64,000 bases of DNA, from positions 3,286,001 through 3,350,000 of the forward strand of contig NZ_CP088297.1 of assembly GCF_024666615.1 (NCBI RefSeq), read 5' to 3'. Shown one piece after another: positions 1,074-9,503 of this stretch. The translations under genes were made by a program, and so were the position numbers. Under the pieces are notes generated by a model that was given only the letters and a program-made list of their open reading frames with translations, ran no database searches and was not told the DNA's origin. This DNA comes from Aquabacterium sp. J223. GTDB lineage: Bacteria > Pseudomonadota > Gammaproteobacteria > Burkholderiales > Burkholderiaceae_C. Within the stretch, counting starts at the first letter, position 1. The number at the start of each line of letters is the position of its first letter.

Positions 1074-1881
1074 CCACCGCCCTGATCGCCGAAGACGAAC
1101 CGCTGCTGGCCGAAGCGCTGCGCCAGGACCTGCTGCGGCTGTGGCCCGGGCTGCAGGTGGTCTGCATGGCGGCCAACGGGGAGCAGGCGGTGCAGCAGGC
1201 CCTGCAGCACCGGCCGCAGCTCGCCTTCCTCGACATTCGCATGCCCGGCCTGAGCGGCCTGGAGGCCGCGCAGGCCCTCGCGGAGGAATGGCCCGACGCC
1301 GACGACGCGCCGCCCTTCCCCTGCTGGTCTTCGTCACCGCCTACGACCAGTACGCGCTCGACGCCTTCGAGCGCCAGGCGGTGGACTACCTGCTGAAGCC
1401 GGTGCAGCCGGAGCGGCTGAAGGGGGCGGTGCGCCGGCTGCAGCAGCGCCTGGCCGAGCGCCAGGCGGCGCCGGCGCCGCAGGCGCTGCAGGCGGCGGTG
1501 GCCCAGCTGCGCGGGCTGCTGGCGCCGTCCGCGTCCGCGGGCGCCGCACCGCCGCAGCGCCTGGAGGTGCTGCAGGTGGGCAGCGGCAACACCATCCACT
1601 TCGTGCCGGTCGACGAGGTGCTGTACTTCGAGGCCGCCGACAAATACCTGCGCGTCGTCACGGCCGGGCATGAGCACGTGATGCGGCTGGCCCTGCGCGA
1701 GCTGCTGCCGCAGCTCGACCCCCAGCGCTTCTGGCAGGTGCACCGCGGCACGGTGGTGCAGGTGCGCTGCATCGAGCGCGCCCAGCGCGACGAGGCCGGC
1801 AAGCTGTCGCTGTCGCTGCGCGGCCGCCCCGAACGGCTGGCCGTGAGCCGGCTGCACGCCCACCTGTTCAAGGGCCTCTGA
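1070..1881 (+). CDS. LytTR response regulator, one-base frame break
   Basis: This is the partner regulator of the preceding kinase. The receiver domain starts MTTALIAEDEP and carries the phospho-acceptor Asp55 in FLDIRMPG. After residue ~83 the reading frame breaks. The remainder of the receiver (LLVFVTAYDQYALDAF, then the conserved Lys of DYLLKPV) and a full LytTR DNA-binding domain (VLYFEAADKYLRV to the end) continue in another frame. Adding one C to the CCCC run at 1318-1321 restores an uninterrupted protein of about 270 residues. The same kind of error recurs in this window, so I regard the gene as intact and the break as a sequencing error. A real frameshift mutation cannot be excluded. 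Confidence 0.82.
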
Positions 1882-1976
1882 GGCCCCGGCCCCGCCGCCC
1901 CGGCCCGATAAGCCGCCCACATCGGCCCCTCGCAAACCTCATCCCGCCCGGCCCGCATCCGCCATAGGCTCGGGCG

Positions 1977-2873
1977 ATGCAAGATACCGATCTGATCGTC
2001 GTCGGCGGCGGCCTGGCGGGCCTGACCGCCGCGGCCGACGCCGGCCGTGCCGGGCTGCGCTGCACCGCCTTCGCCGGACCGGTGCCCGGCGGCCTGCTGC
2101 TGTCCATCGAATCGGTGGAGGGCCTGCCCGAGCATCCGGACGGCATCCCGGGCTACGACCTCTGCCCGATGGCCCAGGAAGCGGCGATGGACGCCGGCGT
2201 GCACTTCGTCGACGAGGAGGCCGAGGCGCTGGAGCCGACCGCCGGCGGCTGGGTGGTCCGCAGCGCGGGCGCCGCCTGGCAGGCGCGCGCGGTGATCCTG
2301 GCCCCGGGCAGCCGCCTGCGCACGCTCGGCGTGCCGGGCGAGGCCGAACTGGCCGGCCAGGGCGTCAGCCACTGCGCCAGCTGCGACGGCCCGCTGCTGC
2401 GCGGCAAGCCGGTGGCGGTGGTCGGTGGCGGCGACGCCGCCTGCCAGGAGGCGTTGACGCTGGCCCAGCACGCCAGCGCCGTGCACCTGCTGGTGCGGCG
2501 CGACCGGCTGACCGCCCGCGACGCCTGGCAGCAGCGGGTGCAGGCGCAGCCGAAGATCACCGTGCACACCGGCGCCTGCGTCGAGGCGATCGAAGGCGGC
2601 GGCGCCGTGGAGGCGGTGCGGCTGGCCGACGGCCGGCGGCTGCCGGTGCACGGCGTCTTCGTCTACGCCGGCCTGCTGCCGAACACCGACTGGCTGCGTG
2701 GCGTGGTCGAGCTCGACGCCGACGGCCGCATCCTCACCGACGCCGGCTGGCGCACCGCATCGCCCGGCGTCTTCGCCGCCGGCAGCGCCCGCGCCGGCCA
2801 GGGCGGGCAGGCCGCCGACGCCGTCGCCGACGCGGCGGGCGCCGTGCTTGCCGCCAAGAACCACCTGGGCTGA
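1977..2873 (+). CDS. thioredoxin-reductase-like FAD/NAD(P) disulfide reductase
   Basis: This two-nucleotide-binding flavoprotein of the thioredoxin reductase fold is 298 residues long (E. coli TrxB has about 320). It shows the N-terminal FAD motif VVGGGLAGLTAA, a redox-active CxxC in SHCASCDG (Cys133/Cys136) and the NAD(P)H motif VVGGGDAACQEA near residue 148. In classical TrxB the C-terminal FAD motif is AAGD; here it reads FAAGSARAGQ, so the usual Asp is replaced. It lies 34 bases upstream of the selenoprotein gene on the same strand. I infer that it supplies NAD(P)H-derived electrons to that protein's Sec/Cys pair. A housekeeping thioredoxin reductase is the alternative, but the divergence and the location favour a dedicated partner. 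Confidence 0.85.
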   Translation: MQDTDLIVVGGGLAGLTAAADAGRAGLRCTAFAGPVPGGLLLSIESVEGLPEHPDGIPGYDLCPMAQEAAMDAGVHFVDEEAEALEPTAGGWVVRSAGAAWQARAVILAPGSRLRTLGVPGEAELAGQGVSHCASCDGPLLRGKPVAVVGGGDAACQEALTLAQHASAVHLLVRRDRLTARDAWQQRVQAQPKITVHTGACVEAIEGGGAVEAVRLADGRRLPVHGVFVYAGLLPNTDWLRGVVELDADGRILTDAGWRTASPGVFAAGSARAGQGGQAADAVADAAGAVLAAKNHLG

Positions 2874-2907
2874 CGCCCCCGATGAATCCATGACAGGAGA
2901 CCCCACG

Positions 2908-4542
2908 ATGTCCCGAACGATACAGGTCCACGACCCCCGCGGCTACCCGCCGAAGGTGTCGGCCAAGCGGCTGGCGGCGCGCCTGCCGTCGCTGGACGGC
3001 AAGACCGTCCACCTCGTCGACTGCCTGTTCGACAACTCCGACGCCTTCATGCGCGAGCTGCAGATCTGGTTCGGCGAGCACATGCCCAGCGTCAAGACCG
3101 AGATCGTCAGGCCGCGCGAGAGCTGGGTCGACGACCCGGAGATGCGCGCGCGCATCGTCAAGGACGCGGACGCGGCGATCTTCGGCGTCGGCCTCTGAAG
3201 CACTTGCTGCCCGACGGTCGCCGGGCTCGCAATGGCAGTCGAGGCCGACGGTGTTCCCACCGTCGCCATCCACACCCATCCCTTCGCCCGCCTGGTCAAA
3301 CAGGCGGCCCGTGCCAACGGCACACCCACCGCGCGGCAGCTGTTCGTGCCGCAGCCCATCGTCGGGCTGTCGCCGTCGCAGCTGCGCGAGTACATCCACG
3401 GCACCAACCCGGTGAGCAAGCGGCCCTTCCTGGCCGAGATGCTCGACGGCCTGACCGGCGAGCTGACGGCCGAGGACATGGCCGGCGTCGGCTTCGAGCG
3501 CGACACCCCGCGCCTGCTGGAGCCGGCCACCGAGGACGACCTTCACCGCCGCTTCGAGGACGAGCGTTGGACCGACTTCCTGCCCATCGTGCTGCCCACC
3601 GAGGAACGGGTGGAGGCCATGCTGCGCGGCACCAGCCACCCGCGCGACAAGGTCGTCGGCCAGCTGCGGCCGGCCAACTTCCGCGAGTTCTGGCAGTTCA
3701 CCGTCGAGAAGGTGGCGGTGAACGCGGTGATGGCGGGCGCGCGGCCGGAGTACTTCCCGCTCATCCTGGCCATGGCCGCCAGCGGCATGAGCGCCCGCTC
3801 CAGCAGCACCACCAGCTGGGCGACGCCGTCGATCGTCAACGGCCCCATCCGCCACGAGATCGGGCTGAACAGCGGCATCGGTGCGATGGGCCCCTACGCC
3901 CACGCCAACATGGCGGTGGGCCGGGCGCACGGGCTGCTCAGCCAGAACCTGCAGGGCGGCTCCGTGGTCGGCGAGACCTACATGGGGTCCATCGGCAACG
4001 CCTACAACGTGGCCTGCACCTGGGCCGAGAACGAGGAGCGCAGCCCCTGGGAGCCGCTGCACGTGCAGCGCGGCCTCAAGGCCGAGGACTCGGCGGTCAC
4101 CGTCTACCTCGGCGGCTGGTACACGCTCAGCGGCTTCGGCCCGCGCGAGACCTGGGCAGCGCGCATGCGGCAGGCGCTGCAGGCGGCGGAGAACTACAGC
4201 CCGCCCATCCTGCTGCTCGACCCGCTGGTCGCCCGCGGCTTCGTGGACAAGGGCTTCGTGCGCAAGCAGCAGCTCATCGACTGGCTGCACGAGAACAGCC
4301 GGGTGCCGGCGCGCGAGTTCTGGGACGACCAGTGGGTGCAGACGCTGCTCAAGCCCAAGGCCGTCGACGGCCAGGAGCCCTGGGCCACGCTGCTCAAGGC
4401 CGCGCCGGACGCGCTGGTGCCCAAGTACCGCGCCGAGGACATCAGCGTGGTGGTGCTGGGCGGCGAGACGCAGGGCGCCTGGAAGATGGTGAGCGGCAAC
4501 GGCAGCCGGGCGGTGACGGTGAAGGTCGACGACTGGCGGTGA
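2908..4542 (+). CDS. UGSC-type selenoprotein with in-frame UGA (Sec97)
   Basis: The gene starts at ATG 2908, behind an AGGAGA ribosome site at 2895-2900. It reads to TGA at 3196-3198 and then continues in the same frame to TGA 4540-4542, giving 544 residues with selenocysteine at 97. The codons after the TGA give Ser-Thr-Cys-Cys-Pro, so the redox motif is U-S-T-C, followed by TVAGLAMAVEADGVPTV. This matches the layout of the UGSC (seleno)protein family (Gly-rich strand, UxxC, helix, then GVPT). The remaining ~440 residues are a large conserved-looking domain of unknown function, including GPIRHEIGLNSGIGAMGPY. A SECIS-like hairpin follows the UGA, and selB and tRNA-Sec are next door. A conventional annotation would give a 96-residue protein and a second gene from 3232; both are fragments of this one. 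The substrate is unknown. Confidence 0.9.
3199..3234 (+). promoter_or_regulatory. bacterial SECIS-like hairpin after the UGA codon
   Basis: Immediately 3' of the TGA at 3196-3198 the mRNA can fold. The lower stem is TTGC (3204-3207) with GCAA (3229-3232). The upper stem is GCCCG (3209-3213) with CGGGC (3222-3226). A 1x2 internal loop separates them. The 8-base top loop closes further by C3215-G3220, leaving apical GGUC. The E. coli fdhF SECIS loop also carries GGUC. The apical loop begins about 15-17 bases after the UGA, in the range known for bacterial SECIS elements. It should be bound by the C-terminal domain of the adjacent SelB. Confidence 0.8.
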
Positions 4543-4561
4543 CCCTGGCGGCGGAGGCGCC

Positions 4562-6469
4562 GTGATCGTCGCCACGGCCGGCCACGTCGACCACGGCAAG
4601 ACGACCCTGGTGCACGCCCTCACGGGCGTGCGCACCGACCGCCTGCCGGAGGAGCGCCGGCGCGGCATGACGATCGAGCCGGGCCATGCCCACCTCGACC
4701 TGCCCACCGGCCGCAGCGTCAGCCTCGTCGACGTGCCGGGCCATGCCGACTTCCTGCGCCAGGCCGTCGCCGGGCTGGCGGCGGTCGACGCCGTGCTGCT
4801 GGTCATCGCCTGCGACGACGGCCCGCGCCGGCAGACCCACGACCACCTGGCGCTGCTGGACCTGCTGGGCGTCCATCGCGGCGCGGTGGTGCTGAACAAG
4901 GCCGACCGCGTCGACGCCGGTCGCATGGCCACGCTGCAGGCCGAGGTCGACGCGCTGCTGGCCGGCAGCCCGCTGCAGTCGGCGCCGCGCCTGATGGTCA
5001 GTGCGACCACCGGCCAGGGCCTCGACGGGTTGCGCACGCTGGTCGACGACTGGGCGGCGTCGCCGCCCGTCACGCGGCCCGGCGCCCGTTTCCGCTTCGC
5101 CGTCGACCGCGCCTTCCGCCCGCCGGGCCTCGGCACGGTGGTCACCGGCACCGTGCTGTCGGGCGCCGTGCGGCCGGGCGATGCGCCGGTGCTGTCGCCC
5201 GACGGCACGCCGGTGCGGGTGCGTTCGCTGCAGCGCCACGGCCAGGCCACCGATCGGGCCGAGGCCGGCGAGCGCTGCGCGCTGGCGCTGGCCGGTGTGG
5301 CCCTGGAAGGCCTGGGGCGCGGTCAATGGCTGCTCCACCCCGACCTGCACGCGCCCGCCGCCCGGCTGGACGCCCGCCTGCGCCTGCGGCCCGACGCGCC
5401 GCGTGCGCTGGACGGTGCCGTCCCCACCCGGTGGCGTGTGTACCTCGGCACGGCCGCGGTCGGCGCACGGGTGCTGCCGCTGTCGCCGCGCCGGCTGGTG
5501 CCGGGCGAGAGCGGGCTGGTGCAGTTGCTGCTCGACGCGCCGGTGGCCGCGCTGCACGGCGACCGCTTCGTGCTGCACGACACCGCCGCCCAGGCCCTCG
5601 TCGGCGGCGGGCGGGTGCTGGACAGCGAACCGCCGCGCCGCGGCCGCGCCAGCGACGCCCGGCTGGCGGAATTGCAGGCGCTGGACCACGACGATGCGGC
5701 CGCCGCGCTGGCCGGCCTGCTGGCCGCCCGGCCGCAGGGGGTGGACCCGCAGGCCTTCGCCCGCCAGCGCAACCTCGACCCGTCGGCGTTGGACGACCTT
5801 CGCGCCAGCCAGCCCATCGAAGCGGTGGCCACGTCGCACGGCCCGCGCTGGCTGCACGCGGACCGCTGGCGGCAGTTGCAGCGGTCGCTGACCGACGCGC
5901 TGGACGCCTGGCATGCCGAACGGCCGGACAGCCGCGGGCCGAGCGAGGCCGTGCTGCTGAAGGCCGTGCAGGACCCGGCGGCGCAGGGCCAGGACCGGCC
6001 GCTGCGCCTGGCCGCGCTGCAGGCCGCACTGGCCGCCGGCGCCATCGAACGCGACGGCTTCGCCCTGCGGCGGCCCGGCCACGTCGCCCGGCTGGCCGAG
6101 GCCGACGCCCGCCTGCTGGCCGAACTGCACCGCGTGATGGCGCCGATGGGCCTTCGCCCGCCGCCGCTGGGCGACCTGGCGGCGCTGCTGCAGCGACCGG
6201 TGCCCGACACGCTGCAGGCGCTGCAGCGGCTGTGTGACCTCGGCCACCTGGTGCAGGTGGCCCGCAACCGCTACTTCCTGCCGGAGACGGTGGACGCGCT
6301 GATGGCGGTGGCGCGGGACACCGCGGCCTCGGCGCCCGACGGCCGCTTCGATGCGGCCAGCTTCCGCGACCGCTCGGGGGTGGGCCGCAACCTCAGCATC
6401 CAGCTGCTGGAGTTCTTCGACCGCATCGGCTTCACCCGCTACGCCAGGGAGCGGCGAACGATCCGATGA
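4562..6469 (+). CDS. selB: selenocysteine-specific elongation factor SelB
   Basis: SelB is the GTPase that carries Sec-tRNA-Sec to the ribosome and recognises the SECIS hairpin. The 635-residue length matches the family (about 614 in E. coli). Motifs are G1 GHVDHGKTT (residues 7-15), G3 DVPGH (57-61) and G4 NKAD (112-115), then the beta-barrel domains (FRPPGLGTVVTGTVLSG). The C-terminal winged helices end in RSGVGRNLSIQLLEFFDRIG, the region that binds the SECIS in known SelB. The start is GTG at 4562, with a GGAGG ribosome site, 19 bases after the selenoprotein stop, so the two are probably one operon. Convergent tRNA-Sec follows 19 bases downstream. Confidence 0.97.
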   Translation: MIVATAGHVDHGKTTLVHALTGVRTDRLPEERRRGMTIEPGHAHLDLPTGRSVSLVDVPGHADFLRQAVAGLAAVDAVLLVIACDDGPRRQTHDHLALLDLLGVHRGAVVLNKADRVDAGRMATLQAEVDALLAGSPLQSAPRLMVSATTGQGLDGLRTLVDDWAASPPVTRPGARFRFAVDRAFRPPGLGTVVTGTVLSGAVRPGDAPVLSPDGTPVRVRSLQRHGQATDRAEAGERCALALAGVALEGLGRGQWLLHPDLHAPAARLDARLRLRPDAPRALDGAVPTRWRVYLGTAAVGARVLPLSPRRLVPGESGLVQLLLDAPVAALHGDRFVLHDTAAQALVGGGRVLDSEPPRRGRASDARLAELQALDHDDAAAALAGLLAARPQGVDPQAFARQRNLDPSALDDLRASQPIEAVATSHGPRWLHADRWRQLQRSLTDALDAWHAERPDSRGPSEAVLLKAVQDPAAQGQDRPLRLAALQAALAAGAIERDGFALRRPGHVARLAEADARLLAELHRVMAPMGLRPPPLGDLAALLQRPVPDTLQALQRLCDLGHLVQVARNRYFLPETVDALMAVARDTAASAPDGRFDAASFRDRSGVGRNLSIQLLEFFDRIGFTRYARERRTIR

Positions 6470-6488
6470 GGGCGTGCGGCAAAAGCGA

Positions 6489-6584
6489 TGGCGGAAGGGA
6501 ATGGGAGTCGAACCCACCCGGCGGCGCGTGGCGCCACCCACCGGGTTTGAAGCCCGGCCGACCCACCAGGATCGTTTCCCCTCC
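6489..6584 (-). tRNA. selC: tRNA-Sec (anticodon UCA)
   Basis: Reading the minus strand gives a 96-base tRNA with encoded 3' GCCA. The 8-base-pair acceptor stem GGAGGGGA/UCCCUUCC has one G-U pair. The anticodon stem is CCGGG/CCCGG around loop CUUCAAA, with anticodon UCA (complement of 6548-6550). There is a long GC-rich variable arm, and a T arm with loop UUCGACU. The 8+5 pair acceptor/T arrangement and the long variable arm are hallmarks of bacterial tRNA-Sec. It converges on selB. A TTTT lies just past its 3' end on the minus strand and may help termination. Confidence 0.95.
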
Positions 6585-6761
6585 ACATGCCGCCGGACCG
6601 TTTCGGCGCGGCGGCGAGGCGCATGGTAAGGGCAGTGGCGAGCCGCCGCTGGCGCCGCGCCGGCGGCGTTTCACGCCACGGAGGCGCCGTCTGTCGCGTC
6701 GGCCGGGCGTCGCGACACGCCGCTCGGCACGATGGCGCCCATGTCATCCCAGGAGCCCGCC

Positions 6762-7649: not shown

Positions 7650-9503
7650 ATGTCGTCTTCCCCTGCCAAGCCTGCTTCGACGTCCGCCCCCCGCCCCCAG
7701 CCACAACTTCCTGCGAGGCATCCTCGAGCGCGACCTGGCGCAGGGCACCTACGCCGGCCGCACCTGGCACGGCAGCCCGGGCGACGCGGCGCACCAGGCG
7801 CAGGGCGGGCCTGATCCCGCGAAGGTGCGGCTGCGTTTCCCGCCCGAGCCCAACGGCTACCTGCATGTCGGCCACGCCAAGAGCATCTGCCTGAACTTCG
7901 GCCTGGCGCGCGACTTCGGCGGCGTGTGCCACCTGCGCTTCGACGACACCAACCCGGAGAAGGAAGAGCAGGAGTACGTGGACGCCATCGTCGACGCGGT
8001 GCGCTGGCTGGGCTTCAACTGGGACGCCGACAACGGCGCCGGGGTGGTGACCAGCCACCTCTACTACGCCAGCGACTACTTCGACTTCATGTACCGGGCG
8101 GCCGAGGCGCTGATCGAGGCCGGCCTGGCCTATGTCGACGAGCAGACCCCCGAGCAGATGCGCGCCAGCCGCGGCGACTTCAACACCCCGGGCACCGACA
8201 GCCCGTTCCGCGGCCGCAGCCCGCAGGAGAACCTGGCGCGCTTTCGCGAGATGCGCGACGGCCGTCATCCGGACGGCGCGATGGTGCTGCGCGCCAAGAT
8301 CGACATGGCCTCGCCCAACATCAACCTGCGCGACCCGGCGATCTACCGCATCAAGCACGCCACCCACCACAACACCGGCGACCGCTGGTGCCTCTACCCG
8401 ATGTACACCTACGCGCACCCGATCGAGGACGCGCTGGAGAACATCACCCACAGCGTGTGCACGCTGGAGTTCGAGGACCAGCGGCCCTTCTACGACTGGC
8501 TGCTCGAGCACCTGGCCACGCTCGGCCTGCTCAAGCACCCGCTGCCCAAGCAGTACGAGTTCGCGCGGCTCAACCTGACCTACGTGGTCACCAGCAAGCG
8601 CAAGCTCAAGGCGCTGGTCGACGAGGGCATCGTCGACGGCTGGGACGACCCGCGCATGCCCACCATCCTCGGCCTGCGCCGGCGCGGCTACACCCCCGAG
8701 GCGATCCAGCTCTTCTGCGAGCGCATCGGCGTGACCAAGGACTACAGCTGGATCGACTACGCCACGCTCGACGCCGCGCTGCGCGACGACCTGGAGGGCA
8801 AGGCGCCGCGCGCGATGGCGGTGCTCGACCCGGTGAAGCTGGTGCTGCAGAACTGGGACGAGGTGATCGGCGCCGGCCAGGTGGAACCGTGCAGCGCGCC
8901 GGCCCACCCCCCACCACCCCGACCTCGGCCAGCGCCAGTTCAGCCTCGGCCCCGAGGTCTGGATCGAACGCGAGGACTTCCAGGAAGAACCGCCCAAGGG
9001 CTACCACCGGCTGTACCCGCCGCGCTACGACGGCCAGGGCGGCCGCCTGCCGGGCAGCACCGTGCGGCTGAAGTACGGCTACGTGATCGAGTGCACCGGG
9101 CTGCGCAAGAACTTCGACGGCAGCCTGGCCGAGGTGCACGCCAAGCTGGTCCCCGACACGAAGAGCGGCACCCCCGGCGCCGACCGGGTGAAGACCAAGG
9201 GCGTGATCACCTGGGTCGGCGTGCACGACGCGGTGCCGGCCGAGGTGCGCCTGTACGACCGCCTCTTCACCGACCCCCAGCCCGACGCCGGCGGCAAGGA
9301 CTTCAAGGCGCTGCTGAACCCCGACGCCAAGCGGGTGGTCACCGCCTACCTGGAGCCATCACTGGCCGACGCGAAGCCGGACCACCGCTTCCAGTTCGAG
9401 CGCCACGGCTACTTCGTCAGCGACGCCAAGGACCACCTGCCCAGCCAGGGCCGGGCGGTGTTCAACCGGATCACGGGGTTGAAGGACGGCTGGGGGGAAG
9501 TGA
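7650..9503 (+). CDS. glnS: glutaminyl-tRNA synthetase, three frame breaks
   Basis: GlnRS charges tRNA-Gln. The class I signature [16 protein letters not shown] is present, followed by the Rossmann core ([18 protein letters not shown]) and a KMSKS-like [12 protein letters not shown]. The C-terminal beta-barrels include [20 protein letters not shown]. The protein is interrupted three times. One extra C at 7687-7692 separates [14 protein letters not shown] from [10 protein letters not shown]. One extra C at 8907-8912 breaks [13 protein letters not shown]. One extra G at 9492-9497 hides the natural end DGWGK-stop at 9501-9503. All are in runs of six. Corrected, it is a normal full-length enzyme. 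Loss of an essential gene is unlikely, so sequencing error is the simplest reading. Confidence 0.9.

Follow-up and report, generated by a model that had tools for sequence, protein, structure and literature searches.

A predicted UGSC-family selenoprotein gene beside a second, divergent selB gene in Aquabacterium sp. J223

The DNA analyzed here (the window) is a stretch of 64,000 nucleotides from Aquabacterium sp. J223 (NZ_CP088297.1, positions 3,286,001 to 3,350,000). A flavoprotein gene at 1977 to 2873 (plus strand) lies 34 bases upstream of a predicted gene for a UGSC-type selenoprotein of 544 residues at 2908 to 4542 (plus strand), which is followed by a selB gene at 4562 to 6469 (plus strand) and by the tRNA-Sec gene, selC, at 6489 to 6585 (minus strand). 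The flavoprotein, in which a C-A-S-C motif was seen by eye, scores 230.6 bits against TIGR01292, below the cut-off of 343.45, and is therefore referred to here as thioredoxin reductase (TrxR)-like. The SelB protein scores 326.3 bits against TIGR00475 (cut-off, 242.25), with its GTPase, beta-barrel, and winged-helix domains all matched. The genome, a single contig of 4.66 Mb, contains selA, selD, selB, and tRNA-Sec; the tRNA-Sec gene of the window is the only match in the genome above the family cut-off, and 5 of 12 weaker matches were checked and found to be tRNA-Ser or tRNA-Trp. The region from 1850 to 6700 yielded no consensus promoter or terminator.

The selenoprotein frame opens with an ATG at 2908, runs for 96 codons to a TGA at 3196 to 3198, stays open for a further 447 codons, and ends with a TGA at 4540 to 4542. 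The first-pass annotation had proposed that the 96-residue frame and an apparent second gene starting at 3232 are in fact one frame, and its positions are correct: the ATG at 3232 is codon 109 of the frame that begins at 2908. Its reading of the residues around the TGA as G-V-G-L-U-S-T-C-C-P-T-V, its count of the open codons that follow, and its placement of SelB and tRNA-Sec genes downstream were all borne out. The TGA would encode residue 97, the first of a U-S-T-C motif within a UGSC domain (residues 1 to 197; 2908 to 3498, plus strand), and the remainder of the protein forms a C-terminal domain of 347 residues (198 to 544; 3499 to 4539, plus strand). Other long open reading frames cross the same region of this GC-rich DNA, one of 838 amino acids on the minus strand and one of 453 amino acids in another plus-strand frame. 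Open length by itself is thus no evidence for a gene, and the case rests on the relatives.

A search of named genomes returned at least 596 stretches, of which 524 were confirmed and the best 80 kept, a selection that favors close relatives. By title and tree, these 80 come from the Pseudomonadota, Chloroflexota, Rokuibacteriota, Myxococcota, Actinomycetota, Poribacteria, and Thermodesulfobacteriota. When the residue 97 column was aligned with homologues, the check that the first-pass annotation had suggested, the TGA of the window recurred in all 80 relatives (the best 80 of 524), and no other in-frame stop was present in their matched stretches. Five close homologues without a TGA in this column were examined, and all five have Cys there: a paralogue in the same genome and the proteins at loci L012, L153, L154, and L155, the last three from the same family as the source organism. 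Columns 97 (Cys, or U read as Cys) and 100 (Cys) are invariant across 56 aligned sequences. The paralogue is 51% identical to the window protein and carries the motif GVGHCSTC; it is located on the minus strand at 3652129 to 3653754 of the source genome (G000:C1; L039:6127-7785), and by eye, its neighbors include genes for a transport receptor of the TctC type and for an enolase-superfamily protein. The Cys-type gene at L012 (minus strand) has an in-frame TGA elsewhere, within its C-terminal domain. In an order-level sample, 36 of 300 genomes (the source genome included) gave a match to the UGSC gene, many of these being more distant proteins with one TGA. Matches in a same-family sample were confined to 5 of 120 genomes; besides the source genome, these were three full-length Cys forms and one match to the C-terminal domain only.

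These data bear directly on whether the locus might encode two separate proteins, a 96-residue product and a second protein initiated at the ATG at 3232. An ATG is indeed found at the same codon in 48 of the 80 relatives, but the other 32 have no ATG, GTG, or TTG there. Moreover, residues 98 to 108, which would then lie between two genes, stand out by their conservation, with 75% identity to the window as against 62% before and 61% after them, and the differences are concentrated at third codon positions. The Pfam UGSC profile, PF24696, also spans the junction: the two halves score 31.6 and 32.1 bits over profile positions 2 to 91 and 106 to 159, respectively, and the read-through protein scores 84 bits (cut-off, 25) over positions 2 to 159 of 172. 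Four of the five Cys homologues are uninterrupted, and the fifth, at L012, is interrupted at a different place. Homologues that end at residue 96 and restart near 3232, which the first-pass annotation had named as grounds for rejecting its proposal, were not seen. We therefore regard two separate proteins as very improbable. Because the profile spans both halves, all 80 relatives keep the TGA, and residues 98 to 108 are conserved, read-through stands above what chance would give.

Behind the UGA, at 3209 to 3226 (plus strand), lies a bSECIS-type hairpin with an apical GGUC loop (3216 to 3219) and a core stem of four pairs. Of 81 Sec genes, 80 have the loop sequence GGTC (L113 lacks it), and so does one of the five Cys homologues, the paralogue of the source genome, whose stem appears by eye to be broken. 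At the third positions of codons 102 and 105, 65 of the 81 sequences have a G-C pair, 15 a C-G pair, and 1 no pair, and one pair of the stem is an A.C mismatch in the clade of the window (11 of 81). Among 73 distinct rows, compensatory changes, which are synonymous, occur at two of the four core pairs, in 15 and 18 sequences. The covariation score was 0.310, compared with a shuffled mean of 0.117, a value that none of 500 shuffles matched for the observed score; two of five covariation measures, the number of pairs changed on both sides (493 of 500 shuffles as high) and of further pair types (500 of 500), did not rise above the shuffles. A control slid by -3 paired equally many cells (94.2%) but had a covariation score of only 0.108. 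Third-base entropy was lowest at codons 103, 104, and 106 (ranks 1, 2, and 3 of 157 fourfold columns), with codon 102 at rank 7. The fold of the window hairpin alone was not exceptional (z of -0.7 to -2.8), so that it is the comparative test, not the folding of this one stretch, that supports a SECIS. On this comparative footing, the hairpin appears to supply the bSECIS element expected of a bacterial selenoprotein gene.

A further explanation would be that the TGA is a nonsense mutation in a pseudogene or a sequencing error. Two other genes in the window are apparently frameshifted, and base errors may thus exist in this assembly, but a TGA shared by 80 of 80 relatives and backed by a covarying hairpin refutes an error of this kind for the window, and we consider it the most remote of the explanations weighed here. 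The one locus that may be such a case is L113 itself, where a TGA stands in the Sec column without a GGTC loop. We therefore conclude, with a probability of about 0.97, that 2908 to 4542, for which full-length read-through homologues exist, is a single selenoprotein gene in which the UGA at 3196 to 3198 would be read as Sec. When genes are predicted with the standard bacterial code, such a gene is cut in two, and its active site is lost. The two frameshifted genes were noticed by eye: in a response regulator gene at 1070 to 1881, the receiver-like and LytTR parts lie in different frames, and a glnS-like gene appears to shift frame at about 8890 to 9062, near a run of C. Both suggest indel errors in the assembly. 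With regard to L113 (1049 to 1093), the tree places its gene next to the Cys paralogue, and its TGA may be a chance nonsense change; the paralogue is a long branch, making its placement unsure. It was also noticed that L066, from a metagenome-assembled genome (MAG) titled Klebsiella pneumoniae, groups with the betaproteobacterial MAG L071, and its title looks wrong.

The first-pass annotation had called the protein UGSC type. This stands at the level of the Pfam family, PF24696; the motif itself is USTC, and the score of 61.6 bits against the UGSC equivalog NF041046 is under the curated cut-off of 125, for which reason we file the protein under PF24696 and not under the equivalog. It is very probably, judging by its sequence, a divergent, fused member of this known family, with which it shares the Sec/Cys-x-x-Cys domain and from which it differs by the USTC motif and the fused C-terminal domain. 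UGSC selenoproteins, including a fusion to an uncharacterized domain, have been in print since 2008, as UGSC/Unknown_1 in a survey of the Global Ocean Sampling data (PMC2398784), in which Unknown_1 might correspond to the C-terminal domain described here. Others appear in PMC13188914 and PMC9312934, and UGSC-motif selenoproteins are described for the Geodermatophilaceae (PMC5330540). No function of UGSC selenoproteins is stated in the parts of this literature that we consulted, and the open-licence literature yielded nothing on point for UGSC proteins in the Burkholderiales.

The predicted structure of the whole protein has a mean pLDDT of 92.4. The Sec domain is modeled as alternating strands and helices, with Sec97 between a strand (89 to 95) and a helix (100 to 113). 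Its best structural matches are a designed protein (Z of 10.5) and a chain of the methyl-coenzyme M reductase activation complex (Z of 10.3), followed by CheY-like and Rossmann-like chains. As regards a thioredoxin fold, the model is of the beta-alpha alternating type, and the matches listed are CheY/Rossmann-like; other folds may occur outside that list. Searching PDB sequences with the selenoprotein profile gave no match at E values up to 1, and nothing significant was obtained with PrdB-like proteins. The C-terminal domain (pLDDT of 88.9) has no significant match in Pfam. Fumarate hydratase, its best match in structure comparison, was set aside as too weak (Z of 4.2; 164 aligned residues; rmsd of 5.5), and a Foldseek match with an E value of 5.7e-4 had a TM score of about 0.2, so that no fold was assigned.

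The two domains are also found as neighbors. Among 12 short, UGSC-only matches in the order-level sample, 11 have one TGA and a separate match to the C-terminal domain within about 2 kb (genomes G052, G059, G103, G104, G175, G210, G211, G240, G241, G267, and G270). The remaining one, in G002, is free of stops, and its contig lacks such a neighbor. The separate genes near short UGSC frames indicate that the two parts go together, fused or not.

A distant relationship of the Sec domain to PrdB and GrdB, the selenoprotein subunits of D-proline and glycine reductase, is suggested by profile comparison. The PrdB model TIGR04483 matches 7 of 56 chosen homologues at E values up to 1, the best at 5.3e-4 (19.5 bits, against a cut-off of 300), and the window protein itself matches neither TIGR04483 nor TIGR01917 at E values up to 1; some members are also matched by unrelated models, for an SDR and for S-methyl thiourocanate hydratase, with E values of 0.007 to 0.015. 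Using hhalign, the UGSC domain aligned over 70 columns, with Sec against Sec, to a set of 15 PrdB-like proteins that includes two with a TGA in the motif (E value of 4.8e-6); the probability of 86% is not decisive. The C-terminal domain, which the PrdB-like proteins do not have, reached 0.2% in the same comparison. We thus take the Sec domain to be probably a distant relative of PrdB/GrdB and only that, the likeness lying in the U-x-x-C motif and in the 70 or so columns around it. No report of such a relationship for UGSC proteins was found in the literature searched. PF09338, the GrdE/PrdA-type model, matched two homologues weakly within the UGSC domain (E values of 0.22 to 0.27); a search of 398 genomes from the phylum found no partner of this type and matched no control either.

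The gene neighborhood adds a second likeness, as trxB is present in grd operons and a TrxR-like gene lies next to the selenoprotein gene in the window. Gene calling placed a TrxR-like gene in at least 29 of the 80 loci, in at least 24 of them as a same-strand neighbor within 400 bases; none was found in the other 51, where many contigs are cut and gene calling is crude. A SelB gene was present in at least 10 of the 80 loci by gene calling and in at least 12 by tblastn, and since many loci end at contig edges, all these neighbor counts are lower bounds. Altogether, 74 same-strand neighbors were called, 24 of them TrxR-like and 3 SelB. A Pfam tally of the other 47 revealed no common pathway, the largest family being DUF1989 (4 of 47); three have AIR-synthase domains, and one is SelA. 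At L048, the neighbor combines an AIR-synthase domain with a pyridine-nucleotide reductase and is SelD-like.

Based on these observations, we propose how the protein might be made and work. The hairpin would recruit SelB with Sec-tRNA-Sec to the UGA, and the ribosome would insert Sec at residue 97 and continue for 447 codons, steps for which there is comparative support. In PrdB and GrdB, the Sec selenolate is the nucleophile; by analogy, the Sec97 selenolate would attack a substrate held in part by the C-terminal domain, Cys100 would resolve the adduct as a selenenylsulfide, and the adjacent TrxR-like flavoprotein would restore the U-x-x-C pair using NADPH. From the sequence, we infer an NADPH-fed Sec reductase. 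Taken as a whole, Sec insertion combined with a reductase-type U-x-x-C enzyme is highly likely to be the best explanation of the locus. Regeneration by the neighboring flavoprotein is probable on its own account, and for reductive bond cleavage of the PrdB/GrdB kind, rather than plain thiol redox chemistry, we would put the chances just short of even. The protein could also be a thiol-disulfide or peroxide antioxidant enzyme, as was guessed earlier for the family, and the U-x-x-C motif and the TrxR-like neighbor would suit such thiol chemistry; however, the confident model has a beta-alpha domain with CheY/Rossmann-like matches, the profile matches are to PrdB/GrdB, and the large fused domain suggests a specific substrate. 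This antioxidant role is a real possibility that we nevertheless rate below an even chance. The proposed reductase, with its PrdB/GrdB link, fused domain, and reductase neighbor, offers a concrete biochemical hypothesis for UGSC selenoproteins.

Since the UGSC family itself is known, the less expected part of the finding is the adjacent second and divergent selB gene. The first-pass annotation had rightly noted a SelB gene next door and could not see that it is one of two in the genome. The other, resident selB gene above the cut-off (2856320 to 2858227; L158:10321-12228) directly follows selA; a formate dehydrogenase gene that has an in-frame TGA of its own precedes it by about 4 kb. The two SelB proteins are 44% identical and would share the single tRNA-Sec. 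In the same-family sample, SelB was above the cut-off in 28 of 120 genomes, and among the matches listed, two separate SelBs occurred in the source genome only. In the tree, the SelBs that adjoin UGSC genes in Piscinibacter (L045) and Ramlibacter (L046) form a group with the window SelB (support of 100/100, and of 97/94 in a second tree), and the resident SelB groups with the SelBs of the family. Like the resident protein and E. coli SelB, the window SelB belongs to TIGR00475; it differs in having G-R-N in the last winged-helix domain, at a motif that we take to touch the SECIS, where the resident and E. coli proteins have G-R-K. Nothing on point about a second selB gene in one genome was found in the open-licence literature searched.

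In the close clade of 10 genomes (the source genome, G000, and G782 to G790), most of which are MAGs, so that absences are soft, Sec-type FdhA was above the cut-off in five (G000, G783, G784, G786, and G788). Four of the 10 have two SelBs, the second one of G784 being partial, and all four have Sec-type FdhA; G786 has one SelB. The five without Sec-type FdhA have one SelB each above the cut-off, all of the GRN type, and G790 has additional short SelB fragments below it. In both G000 and G783, each SelB adjoins a different selenoprotein gene. A third motif type, GRG, is found in the FdhA-side SelB of G783 and in the second SelB of G788. Another ten genomes (G791 to G800) include none with two SelBs, nine with one, and one (G796) with none above the cut-off. 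The hairpins of the two selenoprotein genes differ in their loops: fdhA has AGUCU or AGUUU at nucleotides 22 to 26 after the UGA in five of six loci (L211 is off the pattern), with the A paired to the last U by RNAfold, and the UGSC gene has GGUC at nucleotides 21 to 24.

It is conceivable that two elongation factors divide the work of one tRNA-Sec, the resident SelB serving with selA and the Sec formate dehydrogenase and the second SelB traveling with the UGSC gene and being specialized for its hairpin, which would make a natural orthogonal SelB-SECIS pair. We put this forward tentatively, with the odds leaning against it, as strict specialization has to contend with G786 and G797, which have UGSC, Sec-type FdhA, and one SelB above the cut-off; with the GRG types of G783 and G788; and with the lack of any two-SelB genome in G791 to G800. 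No correspondence emerged when SelB motif types were compared with the sequences of the UGSC loop. That the second SelB is merely redundant or foreign and serves all Sec UGAs equally we consider slightly better than an even bet. The single SelBs of G797 and G786 fit this well, as does the fact that the UGSC loop does not vary with the type of SelB present, but the low identity of the two proteins, their placement beside different selenoprotein genes in G000 and G783, and the restriction of two SelBs, among the 10 close genomes, to those with both selenoproteins all speak against simple redundancy. Two SelBs, if specialized, would give selenoprotein engineering a natural set of orthogonal parts and would illustrate how the Sec code can be divided between messages. 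Elsewhere, at L174 (G680:C1:580277-582163 and 583135-583713), a GRN-type SelB gene lies about 1 kb from a gene for the C-terminal domain only, in a genome without Sec-type FdhA above the cut-off.
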